DNA from: a virus
Virus record (IMG/VR): IMGVR_UViG_3300010334_000207
Coordinates: 1 to 28,415 of that record
Length of the DNA: 28,415 nt
Reading direction: 5' to 3' (one strand)
Position 1 is the first letter of the stretch, and each line of letters begins with the position of its first letter. The notes under the pieces were generated by a model. It was not told where the DNA came from. It worked only from the letters and a program-made list of their open reading frames with translations, and made no database searches. Both the position numbers and the translations under genes were made by a program. Positions 1,727 to 27,055 of the stretch are shown here, piece after piece.

Positions 1727-1961
1727 TACATACGCTGAAGAACTCTTACTGTCTCGCACTCTTTTGAAGAACGAGATGTTAAGGGCTACGTTAGCTATTA
1801 CTCCAACGGACAAGAGGAAACTCTTAAAGACTTGGGGTGAGATGTATAAGCCTGAGATAGTTGATGAGCTGCTTCGTGTTGCAAAGGACAAGGATGCGCG
1901 GCACAAGATAGCAAACTGGAACCTTGGGCAATTCAACAGCGAACGACGAAAGTCTAAATGA
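1701..1961 (+). CDS. Hypothetical protein, weak small-terminase candidate
   Basis: An 86-residue helical, basic protein in the gene slot directly before the large terminase, with an ATGA overlap (1958-1961). The longest frame begins at a TTG inside the preceding gene and has no clear Shine-Dalgarno. The first in-frame ATG is at 1776, which would give a protein of about 61 residues, so the start is uncertain. The segment TPTDKRKLLKTWGEMY (about 34-49) looks like a DNA-binding helical unit. Position suggests the small terminase subunit; no sequence motif confirms it. Confidence 0.55.
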   Translation: MNGLKHLTDTYAEELLLSRTLLKNEMLRATLAITPTDKRKLLKTWGEMYKPEIVDELLRVAKDKDARHKIANWNLGQFNSERRKSK

Positions 1962-3718
1962 AGTTTAATCTGAAACAGTTTTACCAGTTCTGCTCTGAGT
2001 TAAAGATTGAAACCAAAGAGCAGGGCTTACGCAAGATGGATAACCTTCTCGGCACTCAGACATACGTTATGGATGAGATTGCTACTGGACTAGATAACGG
2101 TATCCATTTCTTTGTCATTCTTAAAGGCCGTCAGCTTGGCATCACTACAATCAGTCTAGCCCTAGACTTATACTGGCACTACATCAATGCGGGGTTAAAT
2201 GGAACGCTTGTTACAGACACAGAAGAAAACAGAGATATGTTCCGAGGAACGCTTGGAGCCTATATGGATGGTTTACCTAAAGAGTACAAAATACCCATAC
2301 TTGCACACAATAGAAACTCGCTTTCCCTCAAAAACCGCAGCCGTATCTTTTATCAAGTCGCTGGGCTTAGGGCGAAAGGAAGCCTTGGTCGTGGCAAGGG
2401 TATCACCTTTCTTCATGGAACAGAGACGTCATCGTGGGGAGACGAAGAAGGACTAGCATCCTTGCTTGCCTCTCTTGCAGAGACAAACCCTAAACGTCTT
2501 TACATCTTCGAGTCTACTGCTCGCGGCTTTAATATGTTTCACGATATGTACGTGACAGCTAAGAGAGCGAGAACGCAGAAAGCAATCTTCTGTGGCTGGT
2601 GGCGCAACGAGTTTTATTCTGCTGCGCCTGATACAGATGTCTACAAAGTCTATTGGGACGGCAAACTTACACCTGAAGAAAAAGAATGGACGCGAGATAT
2701 TAAGAAGCTCTACAACTACGAAATCAATTCCAGACAAATGGCGTGGTGGCGTTGGAAGATGCTTGAAGGCATTAAAGACGATGCCCTAATGTATCAGGAG
2801 TTCCCGCCAACGGAAGACTATGCGTTCGTCATGACCGGCACATCTTTCTTTTCAAACTCACGGTGTACTGACGCCATGAAGATTGCTAAGAAGATTGATT
2901 GCGACAACTATCGCTATGCAATGGGTGTCAACTTCCAAGATATGCAAGTCTTAAAGTCTACTGACCGCCTGTCTACCTTAAAGGTATGGGAAGAACCATT
3001 AGACACAGCCTACTACGTTATTGGGGCAGACCCTGCTTACGGTTCATCTGATTGGGCAGATAGATTCTGTATTCAAGTCTTCCGTTGCTATTCTGATGGC
3101 ATGGAACAAGTCGCAGAGTTTGCAACTTCAGAGATGAACACGTATCAGTTTGCTTGGGTCATTGCTCACTTGGCTGGTGCTTACAAGAACTCTACGCTTA
3201 ATCTTGAGGTCAATGGTCCGGGTCAGGCGGTGCTAAACGAGATTAAGAACTTGCGTCGTCAAGCTGCAAGCATGGGCAACAAAATGGGCAAGGACTTGAT
3301 GGACGTCTTTGGTTCCATGTCGAACTATATCTGGCGGCGTAACGACACTATGGGCGGTATCTCTAACTCGCTTGGCTGGCTAACAACAGCAGCAACCAAA
3401 GAGCGAATGATGAGTTACACCAAAGATTTGTTTGAGCGCGGTATGTTAGATGTCTATTCCGTAGACACCATTGAGGAGATGAAGACCATCATCCGTGATG
3501 GCGCATCTATTGAGGCTTCGGGTAGAAACAAGGACGACCGGGTAATGGCGATGGCCTTAGCTTGTGCTGCGTATTCAGAGCAGGTTCAGCCTCAGTTAAT
3601 TCAACGCAAACTAAGCCGAAAAGTATCCAGAGAATTAGAAAGCAAGACGCCTGAACAATTGTCTGTAGGCAAAGGTGTATCCAACTATTTGAAAGCGATT
3701 GGTGTCTATGGCGCATAA
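1958..3718 (+). CDS. terL: Terminase large subunit (TerL)
   Basis: A 586-residue DNA-packaging motor protein. An ATPase domain comes first: a Walker A-like GRQLGITT (57-64), a Walker B-like ITFLHGTETSSWGD (149-161, with E156 the likely catalytic Glu), and FESTARG (184-190) as the coupling segment. An RNase H-fold nuclease domain follows: D358 in VIGADPAYGSSDW, E417 in LEVNGPG and D528 in DDRVMAMALA form the metal-binding triad. In the cell it docks on the portal, translocates DNA into the prohead and cuts the concatemer. The start overlaps the previous stop as ATGA. The length is normal for the family. Confidence 0.95.
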   Translation: MKFNLKQFYQFCSELKIETKEQGLRKMDNLLGTQTYVMDEIATGLDNGIHFFVILKGRQLGITTISLALDLYWHYINAGLNGTLVTDTEENRDMFRGTLGAYMDGLPKEYKIPILAHNRNSLSLKNRSRIFYQVAGLRAKGSLGRGKGITFLHGTETSSWGDEEGLASLLASLAETNPKRLYIFESTARGFNMFHDMYVTAKRARTQKAIFCGWWRNEFYSAAPDTDVYKVYWDGKLTPEEKEWTRDIKKLYNYEINSRQMAWWRWKMLEGIKDDALMYQEFPPTEDYAFVMTGTSFFSNSRCTDAMKIAKKIDCDNYRYAMGVNFQDMQVLKSTDRLSTLKVWEEPLDTAYYVIGADPAYGSSDWADRFCIQVFRCYSDGMEQVAEFATSEMNTYQFAWVIAHLAGAYKNSTLNLEVNGPGQAVLNEIKNLRRQAASMGNKMGKDLMDVFGSMSNYIWRRNDTMGGISNSLGWLTTAATKERMMSYTKDLFERGMLDVYSVDTIEEMKTIIRDGASIEASGRNKDDRVMAMALACAAYSEQVQPQLIQRKLSRKVSRELESKTPEQLSVGKGVSNYLKAIGVYGA

Positions 3719-5368: not shown

Positions 5369-6973
5369 ATGCGGATACCAACCAACGACGATGAACGCGA
5401 GTATTTTTATCGTGACTTAATACAAAAGTGCATGGTGTCTCTAGCAGAGCGCAAAGGGGATTATGCCTCTCTGCGCTCTTGGTTTTTGTTCGGTGGTGGT
5501 CCTGATGAGAACCCTGCTCTGTTCAACAAAATATATCCGCACGTTGACCAGCTAACATCGTTTCTCTATTCAGCAGAAACAACTCGCTTCTCAATCAATG
5601 TTGGTGCCGCTGTTTCAGACATGGAACACATCAAGATTCCAAAGCTGACATCTGCGCTAAATGATGAGTGGCTAAACTCAAACGCTGACCAAGTATTTTC
5701 TTCTGCTCTAACGTGGGCGTTAGTCTACAACACAACATTCGTTAAGCTAGTCGTCAACAACGGTATTCACCCATACATGGTAGACCCTAGTTCAATGGGT
5801 GTTCTGCGTGAAGACGTAACCTATACCGACAGACAAGAAGCAATAGTACAAAGCTATTACATTACAAAATCCGATTTGTATAATCGATTGTATAGTCACC
5901 CTAAGCGCGAAGAAATTGTTAAACGTGTTCAAACATCAATGAACACTAAGACAGATGATTTGCCTGAAGGTCTTGACCGTCTAATTATCTCTACGTCTAA
6001 TCCAACCATCTACGGTAACGTCAACTTAGACTTGTACGGGTCTAACCGATACAAAGCCCGTGTTGCTGAAGACACGGTGAAGATGTATGAGTTGTGGGTG
6101 TGGAACGATGAGACTAAAGATTACCAAGTAGTCACGATGGCTGAGCCCGACATATTTATTTATGACCGTCCGGGCGCATCAGTCTTCTTGCGCGGTGAAT
6201 GTCCATTTATTCAAATATGTCCTAACCCACAATACGATTACTATTGGGGTCAAAGTGAAGTAGCTAGACTGAACTTGTTGCAAGCTGTACGAAACAATCG
6301 CATGTCAGAAATATTGGATATATTGTCCAAGCAAGCCTCTCCTCCAAAAGTGTTCTCTGGCTTTATGGGTATCACGGATGAGAAAGCATTTGCGTTTGAC
6401 CGACCCGGCGCGTTCGTCTCTAGCGATATGCCTAACGCAAAGGTTGATTCAGTTGCGCCAGAGATGCCGTCGTCTTTATTTGAGGTCATCCATGAAATTG
6501 ATGCAATGTTTGCAGAGGCAAGTGGAATATCAAGTGTTCTGTCTGGTCGTGGTGAGCAGGGTGTACGCTCCGCTGGTCATGCTTCTCAGTTGGCCCGCCT
6601 TGGAAGTTCTCGCGCAAAGAAACGCGCCTTAATCGTAGAAGACAGCTTAGAAAAGGTAGCAACGCTGTATCTAAAGCTAATGCAAGCCTACGACAATACG
6701 CATTTCACAGACGAAAACGGAAACAAGTTTATTGCAGAGCAATTTACCAAAGATTATGTAGTGAAAGTGGACGCTCACTCCAATAGCCCAATATTTACCG
6801 AAGACATGAAAGATTTGGCGTTTAATCTGTACAAAACCCAAGCTATTGATAAAGAATCTTTGCTTGACTTGTTAGAGCCGCCAATGAAACAATTGTTAAT
6901 AGATAAATTGAAAAAGCGTGAGAAAGACAAAGCAAATCAACCGCAACCTCAAGAAAAGCCAAAGGGTGAATAA
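5369..6973 (+). CDS. Portal protein
   Basis: A 534-residue protein following the terminase, with a profile typical of podovirus portals: an N-terminal region that includes FNKIYPHVDQLTSFLYSAE, an internal GQSEVARLNLLQAVRNNRM helix region, then SGISSVLSGRGEQGVRSAGHASQLARLGSSR and a charged C-terminus rich in Lys, Gln and Pro. Twelve copies form the vertex ring through which DNA enters and leaves, and on which terminase and later the adaptor dock. The start follows directly on the previous stop with GGTAAAG upstream. Its TAATG end is shared with the next ORF. Confidence 0.9.
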   Translation: MRIPTNDDEREYFYRDLIQKCMVSLAERKGDYASLRSWFLFGGGPDENPALFNKIYPHVDQLTSFLYSAETTRFSINVGAAVSDMEHIKIPKLTSALNDEWLNSNADQVFSSALTWALVYNTTFVKLVVNNGIHPYMVDPSSMGVLREDVTYTDRQEAIVQSYYITKSDLYNRLYSHPKREEIVKRVQTSMNTKTDDLPEGLDRLIISTSNPTIYGNVNLDLYGSNRYKARVAEDTVKMYELWVWNDETKDYQVVTMAEPDIFIYDRPGASVFLRGECPFIQICPNPQYDYYWGQSEVARLNLLQAVRNNRMSEILDILSKQASPPKVFSGFMGITDEKAFAFDRPGAFVSSDMPNAKVDSVAPEMPSSLFEVIHEIDAMFAEASGISSVLSGRGEQGVRSAGHASQLARLGSSRAKKRALIVEDSLEKVATLYLKLMQAYDNTHFTDENGNKFIAEQFTKDYVVKVDAHSNSPIFTEDMKDLAFNLYKTQAIDKESLLDLLEPPMKQLLIDKLKKREKDKANQPQPQEKPKGE

Positions 6974-7137
6974 TGGCTACTAAACCAGACTATGCACCAA
7001 AATCTGACCAGCCAAGAACATCGGCTGGAGATGTAAAGAGGACTGAAGCTGCGCCATCTTTTCAATACAGGGTGACGGGCATAAAGTCTTATAACCCCCG
7101 TCAGGCAAGAAATACGGGACGTATGGGCGATAGATAA
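6973..7137 (+). CDS. Small basic hypothetical protein, 54 aa
   Basis: This ORF starts in the TAATG formed by the portal stop and has AAAGGGTGAA upstream, so translation is probably coupled. The product is low in hydrophobic residues, rich in Arg, Lys, Ser and Gly, and probably disordered; the tail (RQARNTGRMGDR) is strongly basic. No family is recognised. Several small basic ORFs follow in a row (7156, 7369, 7479), suggesting a related role such as DNA or RNA binding. Confidence 0.6.
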   Translation: MATKPDYAPKSDQPRTSAGDVKRTEAAPSFQYRVTGIKSYNPRQARNTGRMGDR

Positions 7138-7155: not shown

Positions 7156-7359
7156 ATGGCTAGTGAGAAAAATATGGCTAACGCCATCAGAAGTGCAGGT
7201 AATGCAGCAATTAGTGGAAGAGATGTAGTAAAAGCTGCTATATCTGCCGCAGCAAGAGATGCTGGGCAAGACCGAGAGCCTTCAGAAGCATGGATGCGAG
7301 GAATGCACAGTCCCGAACCCCGTAAGTTAGATAGACGGGGAAGAGCACTTAAACGATAG
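7156..7359 (+). CDS. Small hypothetical protein with basic tail, 67 aa
   Basis: The ATG has ATAGGTGAA upstream. The N-terminal half is an Ala-rich amphipathic helix candidate (about residues 5-38) and the C-terminal part (PRKLDRRGRALKR, 55-67) is basic. The family is not recognised. It stands ten bases before the first 13-codon mini-ORF in the same polycistron. Confidence 0.65.
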   Translation: MASEKNMANAIRSAGNAAISGRDVVKAAISAAARDAGQDREPSEAWMRGMHSPEPRKLDRRGRALKR

Positions 7360-7368
7360 GAGTACACC

Positions 7369-7410
7369 ATGTACAAAAAGCACAAGCGCGGTCGTAAGAC
7401 ACGCCGTTAA
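7369..7410 (+). CDS. 13-residue Arg/Lys mini-protein, copy 1
   Basis: A 14-codon ORF, MYKKHKRGRKTRR, with ATAGGAG five bases upstream of the ATG. Eight of 13 residues are Lys or Arg, plus one His. The layout GGAG-N4-CCATG and the TAATT after the coding part recur at 7479, so the two look like a tandem duplication. Very basic mini-proteins can condense DNA, as the longer J proteins of microviruses do; that is an analogy only. Expression is not proven, but the strong ribosome site and the duplicate argue against chance. Confidence 0.6.
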   Translation: MYKKHKRGRKTRR

Positions 7411-7478
7411 TTCCCCGCAAGGGATGAGGTATGGCTGACTTCCTCTTCTAAGTTGGCCGCTGCTTATTGGAGAAAACC

Positions 7479-7520
7479 ATGGCACGCATGAAACGTAAAG
7501 GCCGTAAAGGTCGTAAGTAA
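7479..7520 (+). CDS. 13-residue Arg/Lys mini-protein, copy 2
   Basis: A 14-codon ORF, MARMKRKGRKGRK, with TTGGAGAAAACC before the ATG. Eight of 13 residues are Lys or Arg. It has the same length as copy 1, a start 110 bases downstream and a matching ribosome site. The 68 bases between the copies hold only a six-codon ORF at 7431. It is followed at once by the hairpins and promoter at 7526-7597. Role as for copy 1: DNA or RNA neutralisation is inference. Confidence 0.6.
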   Translation: MARMKRKGRKGRK

Positions 7521-7525
7521 TTAGT

Positions 7526-7567
7526 CCCTTGTGGATTAAGCCCAAGGGGGAGGGGACATACTCCCCC
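7526..7567 (+). promoter_or_regulatory. Mutually exclusive hairpins (attenuator-like or mRNA-end structure)
   Basis: Three arms are visible: CCCTTG (7526-7531), CAAGGGGGAG (7543-7552) and CTCCCCC (7561-7567). The middle arm can pair with the first (six bp) or the third (seven bp, GGGGGAG with CTCCCCC), but not with both fully. No T-run follows. The structure lies right after the second mini-ORF and before a promoter, so it may end, protect or attenuate the upstream message. Confidence 0.5.
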
Positions 7568-7569
7568 AC

Positions 7570-7597
7570 TTGACATTTGCTGATAGTCTGGTCTAAT
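7570..7597 (+). promoter_or_regulatory. Sigma-70 promoter inside the late block
   Basis: A perfect TTGACA (7570-7575) is followed after 16 bases by TCTAAT (7592-7597), five of six matches to the -10. It lies in one of the few real gaps of the late block, 30 bases before the next start at 7627. It would give independent transcription of the scaffold/capsid segment by host RNA polymerase. Confidence 0.7.
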
Positions 7598-7626: not shown

Positions 7627-8154
7627 ATGAGCGTACCACCCGATAAGTTAATGGAAATGATTGGCAAGCAACAAGGGAACCCTTCCGAGAACCCTGCTGC
7701 TGATAACACCGCGATGTCTGATTCGACAACGGCTCCTATGTCTGCGCCGATGTCTACACCAGAGCCTAAGATGGGAAATCGTGAAGGTGCGCTAGTCAAT
7801 ATTTCAATGGCAATGGATTTGATTGAACAAGCCTTGCCAAGTCTAGGTAGTGAATCACCAGAGGGTCAAAAAGCATTGAACGCTATTCGTGCGTTGAGCG
7901 GTTTGATTGGTCCTCGCAAGCAAAAGACAGGTGAATTACAGCAATCTGAAATTATTCAAATGTTGCAAAACTTACCTCAAGCTGGCGGTGCAACGCCTGA
8001 AGGTAAAGCAATGTCACAAGCACCAATGATTCCCGGTATGTCACCTAGCGGTATGCCTCCTCCTCCAATGCCTAGTGGCGGCGGTGCTGGCGGTCCTCCT
8101 CCTAGCGCACCTCCCGGCGCACCACCCGGCGGTATGCCTCAACCACCTATGTAA
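7627..8154 (+). CDS. Hypothetical protein with Pro/Gly/Met-rich tail, 175 aa
   Basis: First gene after the internal promoter, with AGAGG upstream of the ATG. Residues 1-50 are Pro, Ser and Thr rich; 55-120 look helical; the last 40 or so are a low-complexity run of Pro, Gly, Ala and Met. The family is not recognised. It lies two genes before the scaffold candidate, in the region where head-assembly accessory proteins are coded. The Pro-rich tail is probably disordered. Confidence 0.7.
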   Translation: MSVPPDKLMEMIGKQQGNPSENPAADNTAMSDSTTAPMSAPMSTPEPKMGNREGALVNISMAMDLIEQALPSLGSESPEGQKALNAIRALSGLIGPRKQKTGELQQSEIIQMLQNLPQAGGATPEGKAMSQAPMIPGMSPSGMPPPPMPSGGGAGGPPPSAPPGAPPGGMPQPPM

Positions 8155-8368: not shown

Positions 8369-8899
8369 ATGAGTCTCGAAGATATGTCTTTTGAACAGCG
8401 CGACCAAATGGCGTTGTTGATGGAAGAACTTTCACACAATCCAAGTACAAGAAAAGATATTTTGCGTTTGACGAAGCAAATCAAACCAGACCTTCTTATT
8501 CCTGAGTTGGAAATTGAAAATACAACCAAATCGTATGTCGATAAGCTAGAGCAGCAGCTTATGGCGCGTGATGCAAAAGACAGAGAACAAGACGCTTTGC
8601 GTGACCTTGAGTCTCGCCGTAATAAGTTAATGAAAAAAGGTTTAGTAGAACGTGAAGAAGATGTCTATGAAGTGGAAAAAATTATGCTTGAAAAAGGCAT
8701 AACTAACCATGAATCGGCAGCGGAATACTGGCAATGGATGAAGCAATCAGCTACTCCAACGCCAACCGGTTACAACCCTTCAGCGGTTAGCAAGTTCGAC
8801 TTAGGTAAATACTATAAGAACCCGCAAGCCGCAGCAAGAGATGAAGCATCAAAAGCACTCCAAGAGTTACGTCAAAACAAACGTCCTATTGGATTTTAA
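8369..8899 (+). CDS. Probable scaffolding protein
   Basis: A 176-residue, highly charged, helical protein placed directly before the major capsid gene, the usual site of the scaffold. Residues 45-110 are dense in Glu, Lys, Arg and Leu and look like a coiled coil. The C-terminus (about 135-176, FDLGKYYKNPQAAARDEASK and onwards) is a basic helical segment of the kind that binds capsid subunits. Scaffolds guide prohead assembly and then leave. The ATG has TTAGGGGATAAG upstream. The call rests on position, length and composition, as scaffolds share little sequence. Confidence 0.65.
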   Translation: MSLEDMSFEQRDQMALLMEELSHNPSTRKDILRLTKQIKPDLLIPELEIENTTKSYVDKLEQQLMARDAKDREQDALRDLESRRNKLMKKGLVEREEDVYEVEKIMLEKGITNHESAAEYWQWMKQSATPTPTGYNPSAVSKFDLGKYYKNPQAAARDEASKALQELRQNKRPIGF

Positions 8900-8932: not shown

Positions 8933-9934
8933 ATGCCTATTGGTGGCGGTATCGTTCCAGCAACGGGTAGTACGCAATTTACCGAGTTGACATACGTCAC
9001 GCGGCGTGCGTTTATTCCGAAGCTAGTTGTTCAATTATATAACTCAACACCGTTAATGGCGGCTCTGATTGCTAACTCGCAACAGGCTTCCGGTGGTGTT
9101 TCTTCAATAACCGTTCCCGTTCAAGGCGCACAGTTTGTGAACGCACAATGGTCTGACTACTCTGGTTCATTTAACCAGCCAGCAGTTCAGCAAGGTGCTT
9201 TCAACGCTGAGTTTGACCTGAAGCTGATGATTGCTCCAGTACCGTTCCTCGGTATGGAAGGTGCAGTTCAGCAAGACGCTGCAATCATTCCTTTGATTGA
9301 AGCTCGTATGAACGATGCAACAAACGTGATGATGGATGCAATGGCAACAGCCTTGTATAACAACAGCACGAACACGCAACAGTTCACAGGTTTGCCAGCA
9401 GCAGTTTCTGCTTCCGGCACCTACGGTAACATCAGCCGTTCTGCTTACACTTGGTGGCAGTCAAAAGCCTACACAGCAGGTAACGTGAACCCAACCCGTC
9501 AAAACATTCTTCAGTACATCTCTGGTACCGTTAAAAACGGTGCTGAAGTGCCTACGTTTGGTGTTTGCGGTTTTGGTACATGGACTCTGTTGGCACAAGA
9601 CTTTGTCGGTCAAGAGCAATACGTTATCACTCCCGGTCACGGTTTTGATGGCGATGCTAATGGTCCTCAAGCTGGTTTCCGTGCTTTGATGGTTGCCGGT
9701 GTTCCTATTTATCCTGACCCATACTGTCCAGAAGGTACGGTTTACTTCCTGAACACTAACTACCTCTCGCTCTACATCCATGAGCAAGGTTCGTTCGTGT
9801 TTACAGGTTTTGAATCGACCCTGCCTAACTGGCAGATTGGTTATGTTGGTGCTGTCTTGATGATTGCTGAGTTGGTTTCAACTAAGCCAAAGTCAATGTC
9901 AGTTGTGTCGGGTTACAACTCTCTAAGCATCTAA
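8933..9934 (+). CDS. Major capsid protein
   Basis: A 333-residue protein with a strong ribosome site (TTAGGAGATAACC). The N-terminal FTELTYVTRRAFIPKLVVQLY (about 16-36) and the later AGFRALMVAGVPIYPDPYC, followed by a Trp/Gly-rich C-terminal strand region, fit an HK97-fold capsid protein of podovirus-like phages. It forms the icosahedral shell. An N-terminal delta domain is not obvious, consistent with a separate scaffold gene at 8369. Order (portal, scaffold, this gene, small decoration-type proteins, adaptor) supports the call. Confidence 0.85.
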   Translation: MPIGGGIVPATGSTQFTELTYVTRRAFIPKLVVQLYNSTPLMAALIANSQQASGGVSSITVPVQGAQFVNAQWSDYSGSFNQPAVQQGAFNAEFDLKLMIAPVPFLGMEGAVQQDAAIIPLIEARMNDATNVMMDAMATALYNNSTNTQQFTGLPAAVSASGTYGNISRSAYTWWQSKAYTAGNVNPTRQNILQYISGTVKNGAEVPTFGVCGFGTWTLLAQDFVGQEQYVITPGHGFDGDANGPQAGFRALMVAGVPIYPDPYCPEGTVYFLNTNYLSLYIHEQGSFVFTGFESTLPNWQIGYVGAVLMIAELVSTKPKSMSVVSGYNSLSI

Positions 9935-16932: not shown

Positions 16933-19275
16933 ATGGCAACAAAATCCAATCCCGCATATAAAACCAGCAATGGTCAAATAGATTATTCCAAGTACATTTC
17001 TGGACTTGAGCAACGAATTAAGAATATTAATGCAGAAAAAAGTATGGTATTAAGCGGCGGCGGCGGCGGGATGAATCAGTTAGGTGCTATTCAAAATCAA
17101 ATAAATAAAGTTATAGAATATGTAAACAATCCTACTTCTGAAGCTGGTTTATCTTATGAAAAACTATTTTTTCAAGAAACGGCACAAATGTATGGATATG
17201 AAGCAACTTTTGGTCATCCTGAAGCTGACGGATACAAAAATACTCTTATAAAACAAGTAAATTTTTTTAAAAACGTCAGAAATACATCTTTAATAGACAT
17301 ACAAAAAGATGCAAACACGTATGTAAATATGGGAGTTGAAGGAGCAAAAAAAGATGCAGAAGAAATAAAAAACAAAATGGAAGGAAATTGGTTTGACAAA
17401 CTTGTAAATGTTGCTTTAGCAGTTGGAATAGGCGCAGCAACTGGTGGTATAGGCTCAGCTTTGGCTGCTGAAATAGGGGTTAGCGTGGCTGTAGGCGAAG
17501 CTATAGTTTCTGCTTCACTTGGCCTAATTCAAGGGCAATCTCCACAAGATATTGTTAAAGGAATTATTGGTTCTGTTGCGGCTAATGAAGTTGCCGGAGC
17601 ATTAAAAAGTGTAAACGCAGAAATTGTTAAAGCTGGACCTAATGTTATTTCTCCTGAAGTAGCTTCTGCTTTAGTTAATGCTGAACGTCAAGTTGTTAAT
17701 GCCGCAATAACTGGTCAAGATATTGGTAGGGCTGCGTTAGCTGGTGCTGCCGGTGGTGCTGTTGCTTCAGCATCGTCATTGCTTACAGACAGCAAGGCTT
17801 TACAAAAAGCCTCTGGTGAGTTTGTACAAAACCTAGCTGCTGGAAAAACTACAGAACAAGCATTAACGGGTGCATTAACTGGATACCTTGTATCTTCAGC
17901 AAAAGAAAAAGATGACGCTGAAAAAGCAATTAAACAGCAAGTAAGTAAAAGTATAGAAAAAGTTAATTGGGCAGAACTAAGTGATGCTGAAGCAAGATTT
18001 TTACAAAATACTTATGCTCAGCTAAAAATAGCTGGACAAGATGTATATGATATTTCTACATCACCGAGTAAAGATGGATGGCCTAAAGTTTTTCCGGGAA
18101 CAAATGCTCCAGAAGTATATGACCCATCCAAAACTCATGGAGATGTATTTACTTTAAATGATAGTGGAAAATCATATTTAGTTAGACATATCACTATGGA
18201 GGATGGTGAAGAATATTATGTTTATTACGACAAATCTACAAATAAAATTGGTGCTAGACCAATTAATTTTGAAATGTCTGATGCGGCAGGGGGAACAGGT
18301 TCTTCAAAAACTATAGATATAGATTTATCTGACGTAAAAATTCAACCAGACCAAAAAATAGATAAAAATGGTCAATTAATAAATAATAAAAATGAAGCTA
18401 CTGGTTTTTATGTAGATGACAAGGGAACATTAATAGATTCTAAAGATACGTCTTTTAAAATTCAAGGTTATGTTGACCCGTCTACATTTACTTCAAAAGT
18501 TGATGCTGTTGGTTCTGTTTCTAAAACTTTGCCAGCAGATTTTAAGCCAATACAAACAAGAGATGAGCAATTATTAGCTTTAGTAAATACTGGTGCTGGA
18601 ACTAGCGGCGGTAAAGGTGGGGGTACAAGTGGAAGCGCAGGAAATGTATCCATTAGTACCGGAGGCACAGGTACAGGTAATACAGGAAACGTAACAATAG
18701 GAAATGCTACTACCGGCAACGCTACCACAGGAAACGCTACCACAGGAAACGCTACCACAGGAAACGCTACTACCGGCAACGCTACCACAGGAAACGCTAC
18801 CACAGGAACAGGTAATGTTGTTGTTGCTGGAGGTGGTAAAGGCGGTGGCACAGAAAACGTAACACTTATTACTAATCCAATTTTAAGTGGTAAAACTACT
18901 GGAAAAACAGGTCTTGACAACGATAGAGTTGATACAGATACAAAAACTTTGCCGGAGGTTGTTGTTACTGGCAATCTTGATGAAGAAGAACCATTAGATG
19001 ATACAAAAACTACAGAAGACGACTCAACAAAATCAAAAACAAACGACACTATTTTATTAAGTTTGTTAAATAAGCCATTACAAAAAAGTTTTCCTTTTGG
19101 TTCTAGCCCAACACAAACTAATGCTTCACCGGGTAGTCAAGCGTTAGCTCAGGCGTTACGTGTTGGTGATGCTGGTGCGCCGGTGTTTGGCGGTGACAAA
19201 GATAAGAGTAAGCGTTCAGGATGGAATAGAGAATCATTACGTTATATGGGTAATTCAGGAGACTCAAATGGGTAA
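16933..19275 (+). CDS. Internal virion protein (ejection type), 780 aa
   Basis: Large protein opening the internal protein module. Residues 1-155 look helical; 158-260 is a long Ala/Gly/Val hydrophobic stretch (for example VALAVGIGAATGGIGSALAA) able to insert in membranes; 260-350 is again helical; 360-550 is mixed with DUF-like beta segments; 550-650 is Gly/Thr/Asn low complexity with seven GNATT repeats; the C-terminus is acidic then basic. Length, hydrophobic middle and position before two further long helical proteins fit a protein ejected with the DNA to cross the envelope. No enzymatic domain was recognised. Confidence 0.65.
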   Translation: MATKSNPAYKTSNGQIDYSKYISGLEQRIKNINAEKSMVLSGGGGGMNQLGAIQNQINKVIEYVNNPTSEAGLSYEKLFFQETAQMYGYEATFGHPEADGYKNTLIKQVNFFKNVRNTSLIDIQKDANTYVNMGVEGAKKDAEEIKNKMEGNWFDKLVNVALAVGIGAATGGIGSALAAEIGVSVAVGEAIVSASLGLIQGQSPQDIVKGIIGSVAANEVAGALKSVNAEIVKAGPNVISPEVASALVNAERQVVNAAITGQDIGRAALAGAAGGAVASASSLLTDSKALQKASGEFVQNLAAGKTTEQALTGALTGYLVSSAKEKDDAEKAIKQQVSKSIEKVNWAELSDAEARFLQNTYAQLKIAGQDVYDISTSPSKDGWPKVFPGTNAPEVYDPSKTHGDVFTLNDSGKSYLVRHITMEDGEEYYVYYDKSTNKIGARPINFEMSDAAGGTGSSKTIDIDLSDVKIQPDQKIDKNGQLINNKNEATGFYVDDKGTLIDSKDTSFKIQGYVDPSTFTSKVDAVGSVSKTLPADFKPIQTRDEQLLALVNTGAGTSGGKGGGTSGSAGNVSISTGGTGTGNTGNVTIGNATTGNATTGNATTGNATTGNATTGNATTGNATTGTGNVVVAGGGKGGGTENVTLITNPILSGKTTGKTGLDNDRVDTDTKTLPEVVVTGNLDEEEPLDDTKTTEDDSTKSKTNDTILLSLLNKPLQKSFPFGSSPTQTNASPGSQALAQALRVGDAGAPVFGGDKDKSKRSGWNRESLRYMGNSGDSNG
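18700..18804 (+). repeat. Seven tandem 15-bp repeats coding GNATT
   Basis: Seven copies of a 15-base unit (GGMAAYGCTACYACM) code residues 590-624 of the internal virion protein. The copies differ only at synonymous third positions, and a pattern of variants recurs (units 1-2-3 match 5-6-7 except for one base), suggesting growth by a larger duplication. Being a multiple of three, changes in copy number would keep the frame. Confidence 0.9.
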
Positions 19276-26375: not shown

Positions 26376-26446
26376 TCTGTCATAATTGTTGTGTACGATA
26401 ATTTTACCCACTTAGATTGGGTTGTCACTTTACTACGGAGATTATC

Positions 26447-26764
26447 ATGCTTGCAACATTTACAGTTACTTTTGATTTTGAGCAGTTTTTAAATTTATTA
26501 AATTTTGATTTAATTGAAGAAGATTCAAATGAGTCTGATGAATCTGACGATGAATTTACGTATGATGAAGACGGCAACATCTGGTTTTATGACGAAGAAT
26601 TAGATGTTTGGTTCTATTTTGATGAAGACTTGGATGACTGGGCTGAGTACGATGAAGATGGCACAGTTTGGTATTTAGACGAAGAATCAGATATTCTTTA
26701 CTACTTTGATGATGAAGTTGAAGATTGGGTTGACTCTGAAGAGTTAGAAGAAGACGAAGAATAA
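26447..26764 (+). CDS. Extremely acidic repeat protein, 105 aa
   Basis: Start at the ATG at 26447, with ACGGAG six bases upstream. 45 of 105 residues are Asp or Glu and there is no Lys, Arg or His. After an N-terminal aliphatic/aromatic segment (1-22) and an acidic linker, two ungapped 29-residue repeats follow (39-67 and 68-96; see 26561-26734), rich in Trp, Tyr and Phe, then an acidic tail. Such a charge pattern can mimic DNA or bind basic proteins; both are inference. No family is recognised. A 71-base gap precedes it and a hairpin follows. Confidence 0.75.
   Translation: MLATFTVTFDFEQFLNLLNFDLIEEDSNESDESDDEFTYDEDGNIWFYDEELDVWFYFDEDLDDWAEYDEDGTVWYLDEESDILYYFDDEVEDWVDSEELEEDEE
26561..26734 (+). 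repeat. Two 29-residue acidic/aromatic repeats
   Basis: Unit 1 (26561-26647) and unit 2 (26648-26734) align without gaps; 15 of 29 residues are identical, and most others are conservative. Both start YDEDG, continue W-x2-DEE-x-D, YFD, and end D-W-x-[ED]. Within each unit a shorter pattern of about 9-11 residues (aromatic, three acidic, aromatic) is also visible. Confidence 0.85.
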
Positions 26765-26810: not shown

Positions 26811-26830
26811 ATTTATTAAATGGTCTTTAT

Positions 26831-27055
26831 ATGTCTAAAAGCACTAATCTATCGGTTGGTCGAGGTGAGAAGAAATCAGTTTCTCAAGGCGCAGGGCTGA
26901 CCGCCAAAGGTCGAAAAAAATATAACCGAGCCACAGGAGCAAACCTAAAAGCACCACAGAAATCAGGACCAAGACATAAATCATTTTGCGCTCGCTCTAA
27001 GAACTGGAAGGGTGAACGTGGTAAAGCCGCTAGACGTCGTTGGGGGTGTAGATGA
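26831..27055 (+). CDS. Small basic protein, DUF6321-like
   Basis: 74 residues from the ATG at 26831. The pattern GAGLTAKGRKKYNRATGANL (20-39), KAPQKSGPRHKSFCARSKNW (40-59) and a tail GERGKAARRRWGCR (61-74) matches DUF6321-type proteins, found in many phages and some large viruses; the name is from memory. Two Cys (53, 73) and many Lys/Arg suggest nucleic-acid binding. Function is not established. The ribosome site is weak and a hairpin sits just upstream. The stop is in an ATGA overlap with the next gene. Confidence 0.75.
   Translation: MSKSTNLSVGRGEKKSVSQGAGLTAKGRKKYNRATGANLKAPQKSGPRHKSFCARSKNWKGERGKAARRRWGCR

Follow-up and report, generated by a model that had tools for sequence, protein, structure and literature searches.

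Genomic context of the mini-ORFs

Between the portal gene and the scaffold-position gene of this virus lie two open reading frames (ORFs) that each encode 13 residues, eight of them Lys or Arg. The questions are whether such short ORFs are genes and, if so, what their products and the surrounding RNA do. The window (the whole 28,415-base virus record) carries on the + strand a terminase large subunit gene (1958-3718), a portal gene (5369-6973) that matches SU10_portal (PF23899) and portal families of PHROG, ORFs of 54 aa (6973-7137) and 67 aa (7156-7359), the two mini-ORFs, a scaffold-position gene (7627-8154) whose 175-aa product is rich in Pro and Met, a gene for a 176-aa protein (8369-8899) and a major head protein gene (8933-9934; phrog_9953). 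The initial annotation placed the mini-ORFs in a late operon, a label that is plausible from this order, in which the mini-ORFs come after terminase and portal and ahead of the head genes and the major capsid protein. A promoter-like sequence, TTGACA-N16-TCTAAT (7570..7597, + strand), precedes the next head gene; it is absent from the list of a promoter scan that demands A at -10 position 2. ARAGORN detects neither tRNA nor tmRNA.

Several other features of the window and its relatives can be recorded here. The 67-aa ORF, which lies between the 54-aa ORF and mini-ORF1, is missing from the close relatives read, and in one relative (L025) ORF1 and the hairpin behind it are separated by a different extra ORF; small genes seem to hop into the spot around mini-ORF1. 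An extremely acidic, Asp/Glu-rich ORF with WY-repeats adjoins a basic 75-aa DUF6321 protein (PF19846) (26417-26764 and 26828-27055). A 780-aa ORF (16933-19275) contains tandem TTGNA peptide repeats at about 18468-19049, a region that is also open on the opposite strand as a 193-aa ORF.

Mini-ORF1 (7369..7410, + strand) encodes MYKKHKRGRKTRR and mini-ORF2 (7479..7520, + strand) encodes MARMKRKGRKGRK. Both end in TAA, their starts are 110 nt apart, and GGAG Shine-Dalgarno sites precede them (7359..7362 and 7469..7472, + strand). These coordinates, peptides, compositions, spacing and sites agree exactly with those first reported. On both strands of the window, no ORFs but these two combine a length of 12-16 aa with a Lys/Arg share of at least 53%. 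Second-order Markov simulations give an expected chance count of 0.005 such ORFs per window even with no GGAG requirement, and 0 of 200 simulations produced one with a GGAG site. The shared CCATG context and downstream TAATT, to which the initial annotation also pointed, are present at both mini-ORFs in the window; they are unconserved in relatives and incidental.

Conservation and selection

An IMG/VR portal search and two further portal searches yielded 85 unique portal-to-scaffold regions. At least one mini-ORF is found in 84 of these regions and two or more in 70, counts that do not represent independent events; the relatives are all metagenomic, and the set is dominated by loci near the window. 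Equivalent GGAG-preceded ORFs are thus recovered from the interval in which the initial annotation proposed to look for them, and close relatives show neither the absence nor the non-synonymous scrambling that it had named as counter-evidence. The peptide sequences vary (ORF1: MYKKMKRGRKTRR, MYGKKSKRGRKSCR, MRKHSKKSRKTRR and MTRKAHKKMRKHKR; ORF2: MARKARKGRKARK, MRKARKGRKSRK, MARKARKHKGRKARK, MARARKHKRK and MARRGRKAHKGHKARKGRKARK) while length, mostly 12-15 residues, and charge are kept. Net charge averages 7.7 and 7.9 for the peptides of the two mini-ORFs, Asp or Glu is present in only 11 of 292 peptides, and both ORFs have a conserved basic C-terminus (RK-x-R/K-R/K).

Substitutions between neighbouring sequences are mostly synonymous, and only in the true frame. 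There pN/pS is 0.35 for ORF1 and 0.38 for ORF2, compared with 1.6-2.1 in shifted frames; these are rough values, the compared pairs being drawn from a minimum-spanning tree that was built on the adjacent sequence. The ORFs were chosen with a Lys/Arg filter, the effect of which is small because almost all regions passed it. In an IMG/VR scan with ORF2 back-translated into a 42-base pattern that allows both boxes of Arg codons, all 79 of the matches listed fall at this locus, in the interval that the portal and scaffold-position genes of the phage group enclose. A scan with the ORF1 pattern returned 79 contigs, and all 47 of those newly fetched are syntenic. The argument that the mini-ORFs are not chance ORFs is therefore upheld by the simulations and by a synonymous excess specific to the true frame. 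On this comparative evidence, ORF1 and ORF2 are real, translated microprotein genes under selection that annotation has overlooked.

The initial annotation considered them too short for standard gene callers, and two GenBank relatives (MW202753 and MW202825) carry the mini-ORFs unannotated. In these records reverse-strand hypothetical genes (UOF81572, UOF81573 and UOF82412) have been called over the mini-ORF region (L136 4740-5038, L137 5779-6039), and these look like spurious calls. Pfam gives no match for a 22-aa homologue, and the 13-mers fall below the 20-residue limit of family tools. At one locus (L182), ORF2 starts with ATA rather than ATG within the last 190 bases before the scaffold-position gene, and the remaining peptide matches that of L181; the ATA is either a natural start-codon variant or an error.

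Translation signals and codon choice

The translation signals are kept as well. A GGAG site, mostly 6-8 nt from the start codon, precedes ORF1 in 129 of 138 relatives and ORF2 in 138 of 154. The start is ATG in 286 of 292 mini-ORFs, and the stop is TAA in 97% of ORF1 and 100% of ORF2 sequences. CGT and CGC make up 99% of the Arg codons of ORF2 (611 codons) and 82% of those of ORF1, compared with 78% in the capsid gene, 61% in the portal gene and 55% in the terminase gene. The preference in ORF2 holds even in lineages that swap CGT and CGC freely. This bias suggests that ORF2 is strongly translated and speaks against a rare-codon attenuator. Lys codons of the mini-ORFs show no shift toward the capsid-gene preference, so the argument for expression is one of Arg codons only.

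RNA structures flanking ORF2

The initial annotation overlooked the RNA structures around ORF2. A hairpin, P1 (TCCC-CGCAA-GGGA; 7412..7424, + strand), begins 1 nt past the ORF1 stop codon, and in relatives mostly 1-4 nt past it. P1 is followed by PK1 (7426..7459, + strand), an H-type pseudoknot with the helices P2 (7426-7429/7442-7445) and P3 (7432-7441/7450-7459). PK1 ends about 7-11 nt 5' of the ORF2 ribosome site, which in the window lies 9 nt 3' of it. A second H-type pseudoknot, PK2 (7524..7567, + strand), follows ORF2 and has the helices a (7524-7528/7553-7557) and b (7546-7552/7561-7567). Arm a competes with a local hairpin in the single-sequence fold of the window itself. In four compact relatives (L062, L066, L068 and L077) there is no promoter after PK2, which leaves about 11 nt between the end of PK2 and the ribosome site of the following head gene, an arrangement like that of PK1 and ORF2.

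Folding of single sequences gives energies that lie only modestly on the low side (z about -1.2 to -1.8), and the case for structure is therefore one of covariation. When 51 deduplicated loci are aligned on sequence alone, the PK1 pairs are formed in 82.8% of cells (at most 57% for slid versions of the pairing), double changes occur in 11 of 15 pairs, and the covariation score is 0.293, compared with 0.128 for shuffled alignments and at most 0.158 for every slid version. An earlier set of 29 sequences agrees. The long stem of PK1 is rewritten on both sides, being GGCTGACTT/AAGTTGGCC in the window, GGGCGCAT/ATGTGCCC in L077, TTCTGCTC/GAGTAGAA in L069 and TGCCGCTC/GAGTGGCA in L135. PK2 also shows covariation across relatives, with a score of 0.366 versus 0.160 for stem b. 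In each of the four PK1 and PK2 helices, the fit of an arm to its own partner exceeds that to foreign arms (0 of 2000 permutations). Compensatory changes in both PK1 and PK2 thus show conserved RNA structures on either side of ORF2. Rfam gives no match at the gathering threshold in 8 loci and, for the window, a single weak unrelated hit (E 2.5). A generic pseudoknot finder, applied for presence or absence, produced random hits in ORF-less loci and was therefore excluded from the evidence.

Distribution across clades

In clades with portals 63-74% identical, one or both mini-ORFs are missing; on fragmentary contigs, an ORF was scored as absent only if the next gene could be seen. Neither ORF is present in the L372-L394, L438-L463 and L480 types. 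ORF1 occurs alone in L422, L465 and L469 (e.g. MNKTAKRGRKCRR), with a promoter directly after it and no structure. ORF2 occurs alone with PK1 in L486-L491 (MARKGRKSRKMCK) and alone without PK1 in L494 (MRKGRKCRK). The L191/L358-L371 clade has a single ORF of 18-25 aa at the place of ORF1 (MYGKGMKPMKKPPMRTGKRK), with an ordinary terminator, and L050 is a mosaic with three mini-ORFs and no PK1. PK1 is retained without ORF1 in the L035, L064, L075 and L169 types, where P1 comes after the 54-aa gene. The more distant portals thus show that ORF1, ORF2 and PK1 are separable. Among the sequences read, PK1 is found solely ahead of ORF2 and is missing from the ORF1-only and ORF-less loci. PK1 belongs to ORF2, in a position expected of a translational operator. 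No comparable ORF occupies this place in seven capsid relatives that are more distant (22-30% identity).

Two relatives of this phage (L191 and L192) occur in metagenome-assembled genome contigs labelled Balneolaceae (JAGYJQ010000016.1) and Alphaproteobacteria (JAJTEE010000020.1), and phage contigs with portals 100% identical to theirs occur in IMG/VR. These labels are possibly host hints or the result of mis-binning. A host is not established from the two hits, as the binning of phage contigs is unreliable.

Proposed function of the mini-ORFs

The explanation that we favour, with about even confidence, is that the mini-ORFs encode accessory, nucleic-acid-binding polycationic microproteins and that ORF2 is under a pseudoknot leader acting like the T4 gene 32 operator. 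On the comparative evidence, a large group of uncultured podovirus-like phages has ORF1 and ORF2 as microprotein genes within its head-gene cluster. Their products are polycations, mostly of 12-15 residues, that carry a net charge near +8 and hardly any acidic residues. Charge is the only consistent property of the peptides, and nucleic-acid binding is therefore their simplest function, although charge by itself does not prove it. The peptides would bind DNA or RNA late in infection, in an accessory role. Translation of ORF2 would be controlled by P1 and PK1, together most likely an operator or standby structure for translation, possibly an autogenous one like the leaders of T4 gene 32 and rpsO. 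Covariation and position together put an H-type pseudoknot 5' of the ribosome site, as in such operators. More speculatively, PK2 may be an insulator or stabiliser for the ORF2 message on its 3' side, or a control element for the next gene. Counting against this explanation are ORF2 without PK1 in L050 and L494, the unshifted Lys codons and the lack of mini-ORFs from whole clades.

It is unlikely that the peptides are instead structural, either packaged to neutralise the charge of the genome, like the J proteins of microviruses, or located at the portal or terminase. The position of the mini-ORFs between the portal and other head genes, the net charge of about +8 and the capsid-like choice of Arg codons are all as expected of such a role. 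However, among clades that share the portal and scaffold-position genes, some have no mini-ORF, some have one, and some have a longer and less basic ORF, and neutralising about 35 kb of DNA would probably take thousands of copies. Sister clades share the portal gene but are missing one or both ORFs, so that a head part that is universal, or required by all heads of the group, is improbable.

Less likely still, ORF1 and ORF2 could be leader peptides on which the position of the ribosome opens or closes P1/PK1 and PK2, controlling downstream genes. Attenuation and the repY-repZ system of IncI/IncB plasmids are precedents for control of this type. P1 mostly starts directly behind the ORF1 stop codon, and the pseudoknots come after both ORFs, but PK1 persists where ORF1 is gone and ORF1 persists with no structure behind it (L422, L465 and L469). 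An attenuation leader has a run of rare or regulatory codons, and its codons rather than its peptide are conserved. Here the amino acids are conserved, the codons vary and the Arg codons are common, which weakens the attenuator reading.

Arrest of the ribosome near its own stop codon by the nascent basic peptide, acting in cis, is very unlikely: the conserved basic C-termini, the fixed TAA of both ORFs and the structured RNA immediately downstream would suit it, but the mini-ORFs are very short beside known arrest peptides, and in some lineages the ORF is followed by neither a structure nor a nearby gene. That only the RNA is conserved and the ORFs arose by chance has next to no probability, for although PK1 and PK2 are conserved RNA structures, the idea is contradicted by the simulations (0 expected) and the frame-specific synonymous excess, the peptide-pattern hits are syntenic, and ORF1 and ORF2 are retained where the RNA is lost.

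Comparison with known systems

The J proteins of microviruses (phiX174, alpha3) are tiny, very basic and encoded among head genes, and the mini-ORF peptides resemble them in all three respects. The analogy drawn in the initial annotation holds as a likeness of function and no further. J proteins have roughly 24-40 aa and are an essential, DNA-binding virion part of ssDNA phages, whereas the mini-ORF peptides, known from their genes alone, have mostly 12-15 aa, belong to a dsDNA tailed-phage gene set (terminase, SU10_portal PF23899 portal and tailed-phage major head protein) and are lost in sister clades. Arginine-rich peptides of the lambda N type with boxB are similar in that a short Arg/Lys stretch stands beside a small hairpin, and some P1 loops are GNRA. 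A boxB-like P1 was rejected, as GNRA tetraloops are called in just 17 of 75 distinct hairpins; there is also no partner domain, and no boxA was seen.

Like catalogued small-protein families, the mini-ORFs are unannotated small genes recognised by conservation, but they are at or under the usual length limits. The GMSC catalogue of microbial small ORFs accepts ORFs from 30 nt (PMC11364881), and the peptides may therefore already be listed there as bare sequences. Conservation shows that genuine phage genes can have as few as 12-13 codons, a length at or under the usual limit of detection. Annotation of phages overlooks whole families of such microgenes, with reverse-strand calls in their place here, and two pseudoknot RNAs absent from Rfam come with them, one tied to a microgene.

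The closest parallels to PK1 are the pseudoknot operators ahead of the nucleic-acid-binding protein genes T4 gene 32 and rpsO (S15) (PMC3014915). PK1 is similar in being an H-type pseudoknot 5' of a ribosome site, with a product that is likely to bind nucleic acid. It differs from the gene 32 operator in sequence, in its product (a 13-mer rather than a single-stranded DNA-binding protein) and in distance, the gene 32 pseudoknot lying 67 nt 5' of the start codon and PK1 ending 7-11 nt from the Shine-Dalgarno site. It is doubtful that this tailed-phage group directly translates protamine-like 13-mers that condense DNA or form a ribonucleoprotein with their own pseudoknot leader; if it does, these would be among the smallest known phage genes, carrying their own RNA operator. 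According to a 2010 review, the T4-type gene 32 pseudoknot is perhaps the sole viral case in translational autoregulation (PMC3014915), and PK1 and ORF2 would serve as a compact second test case beside it.
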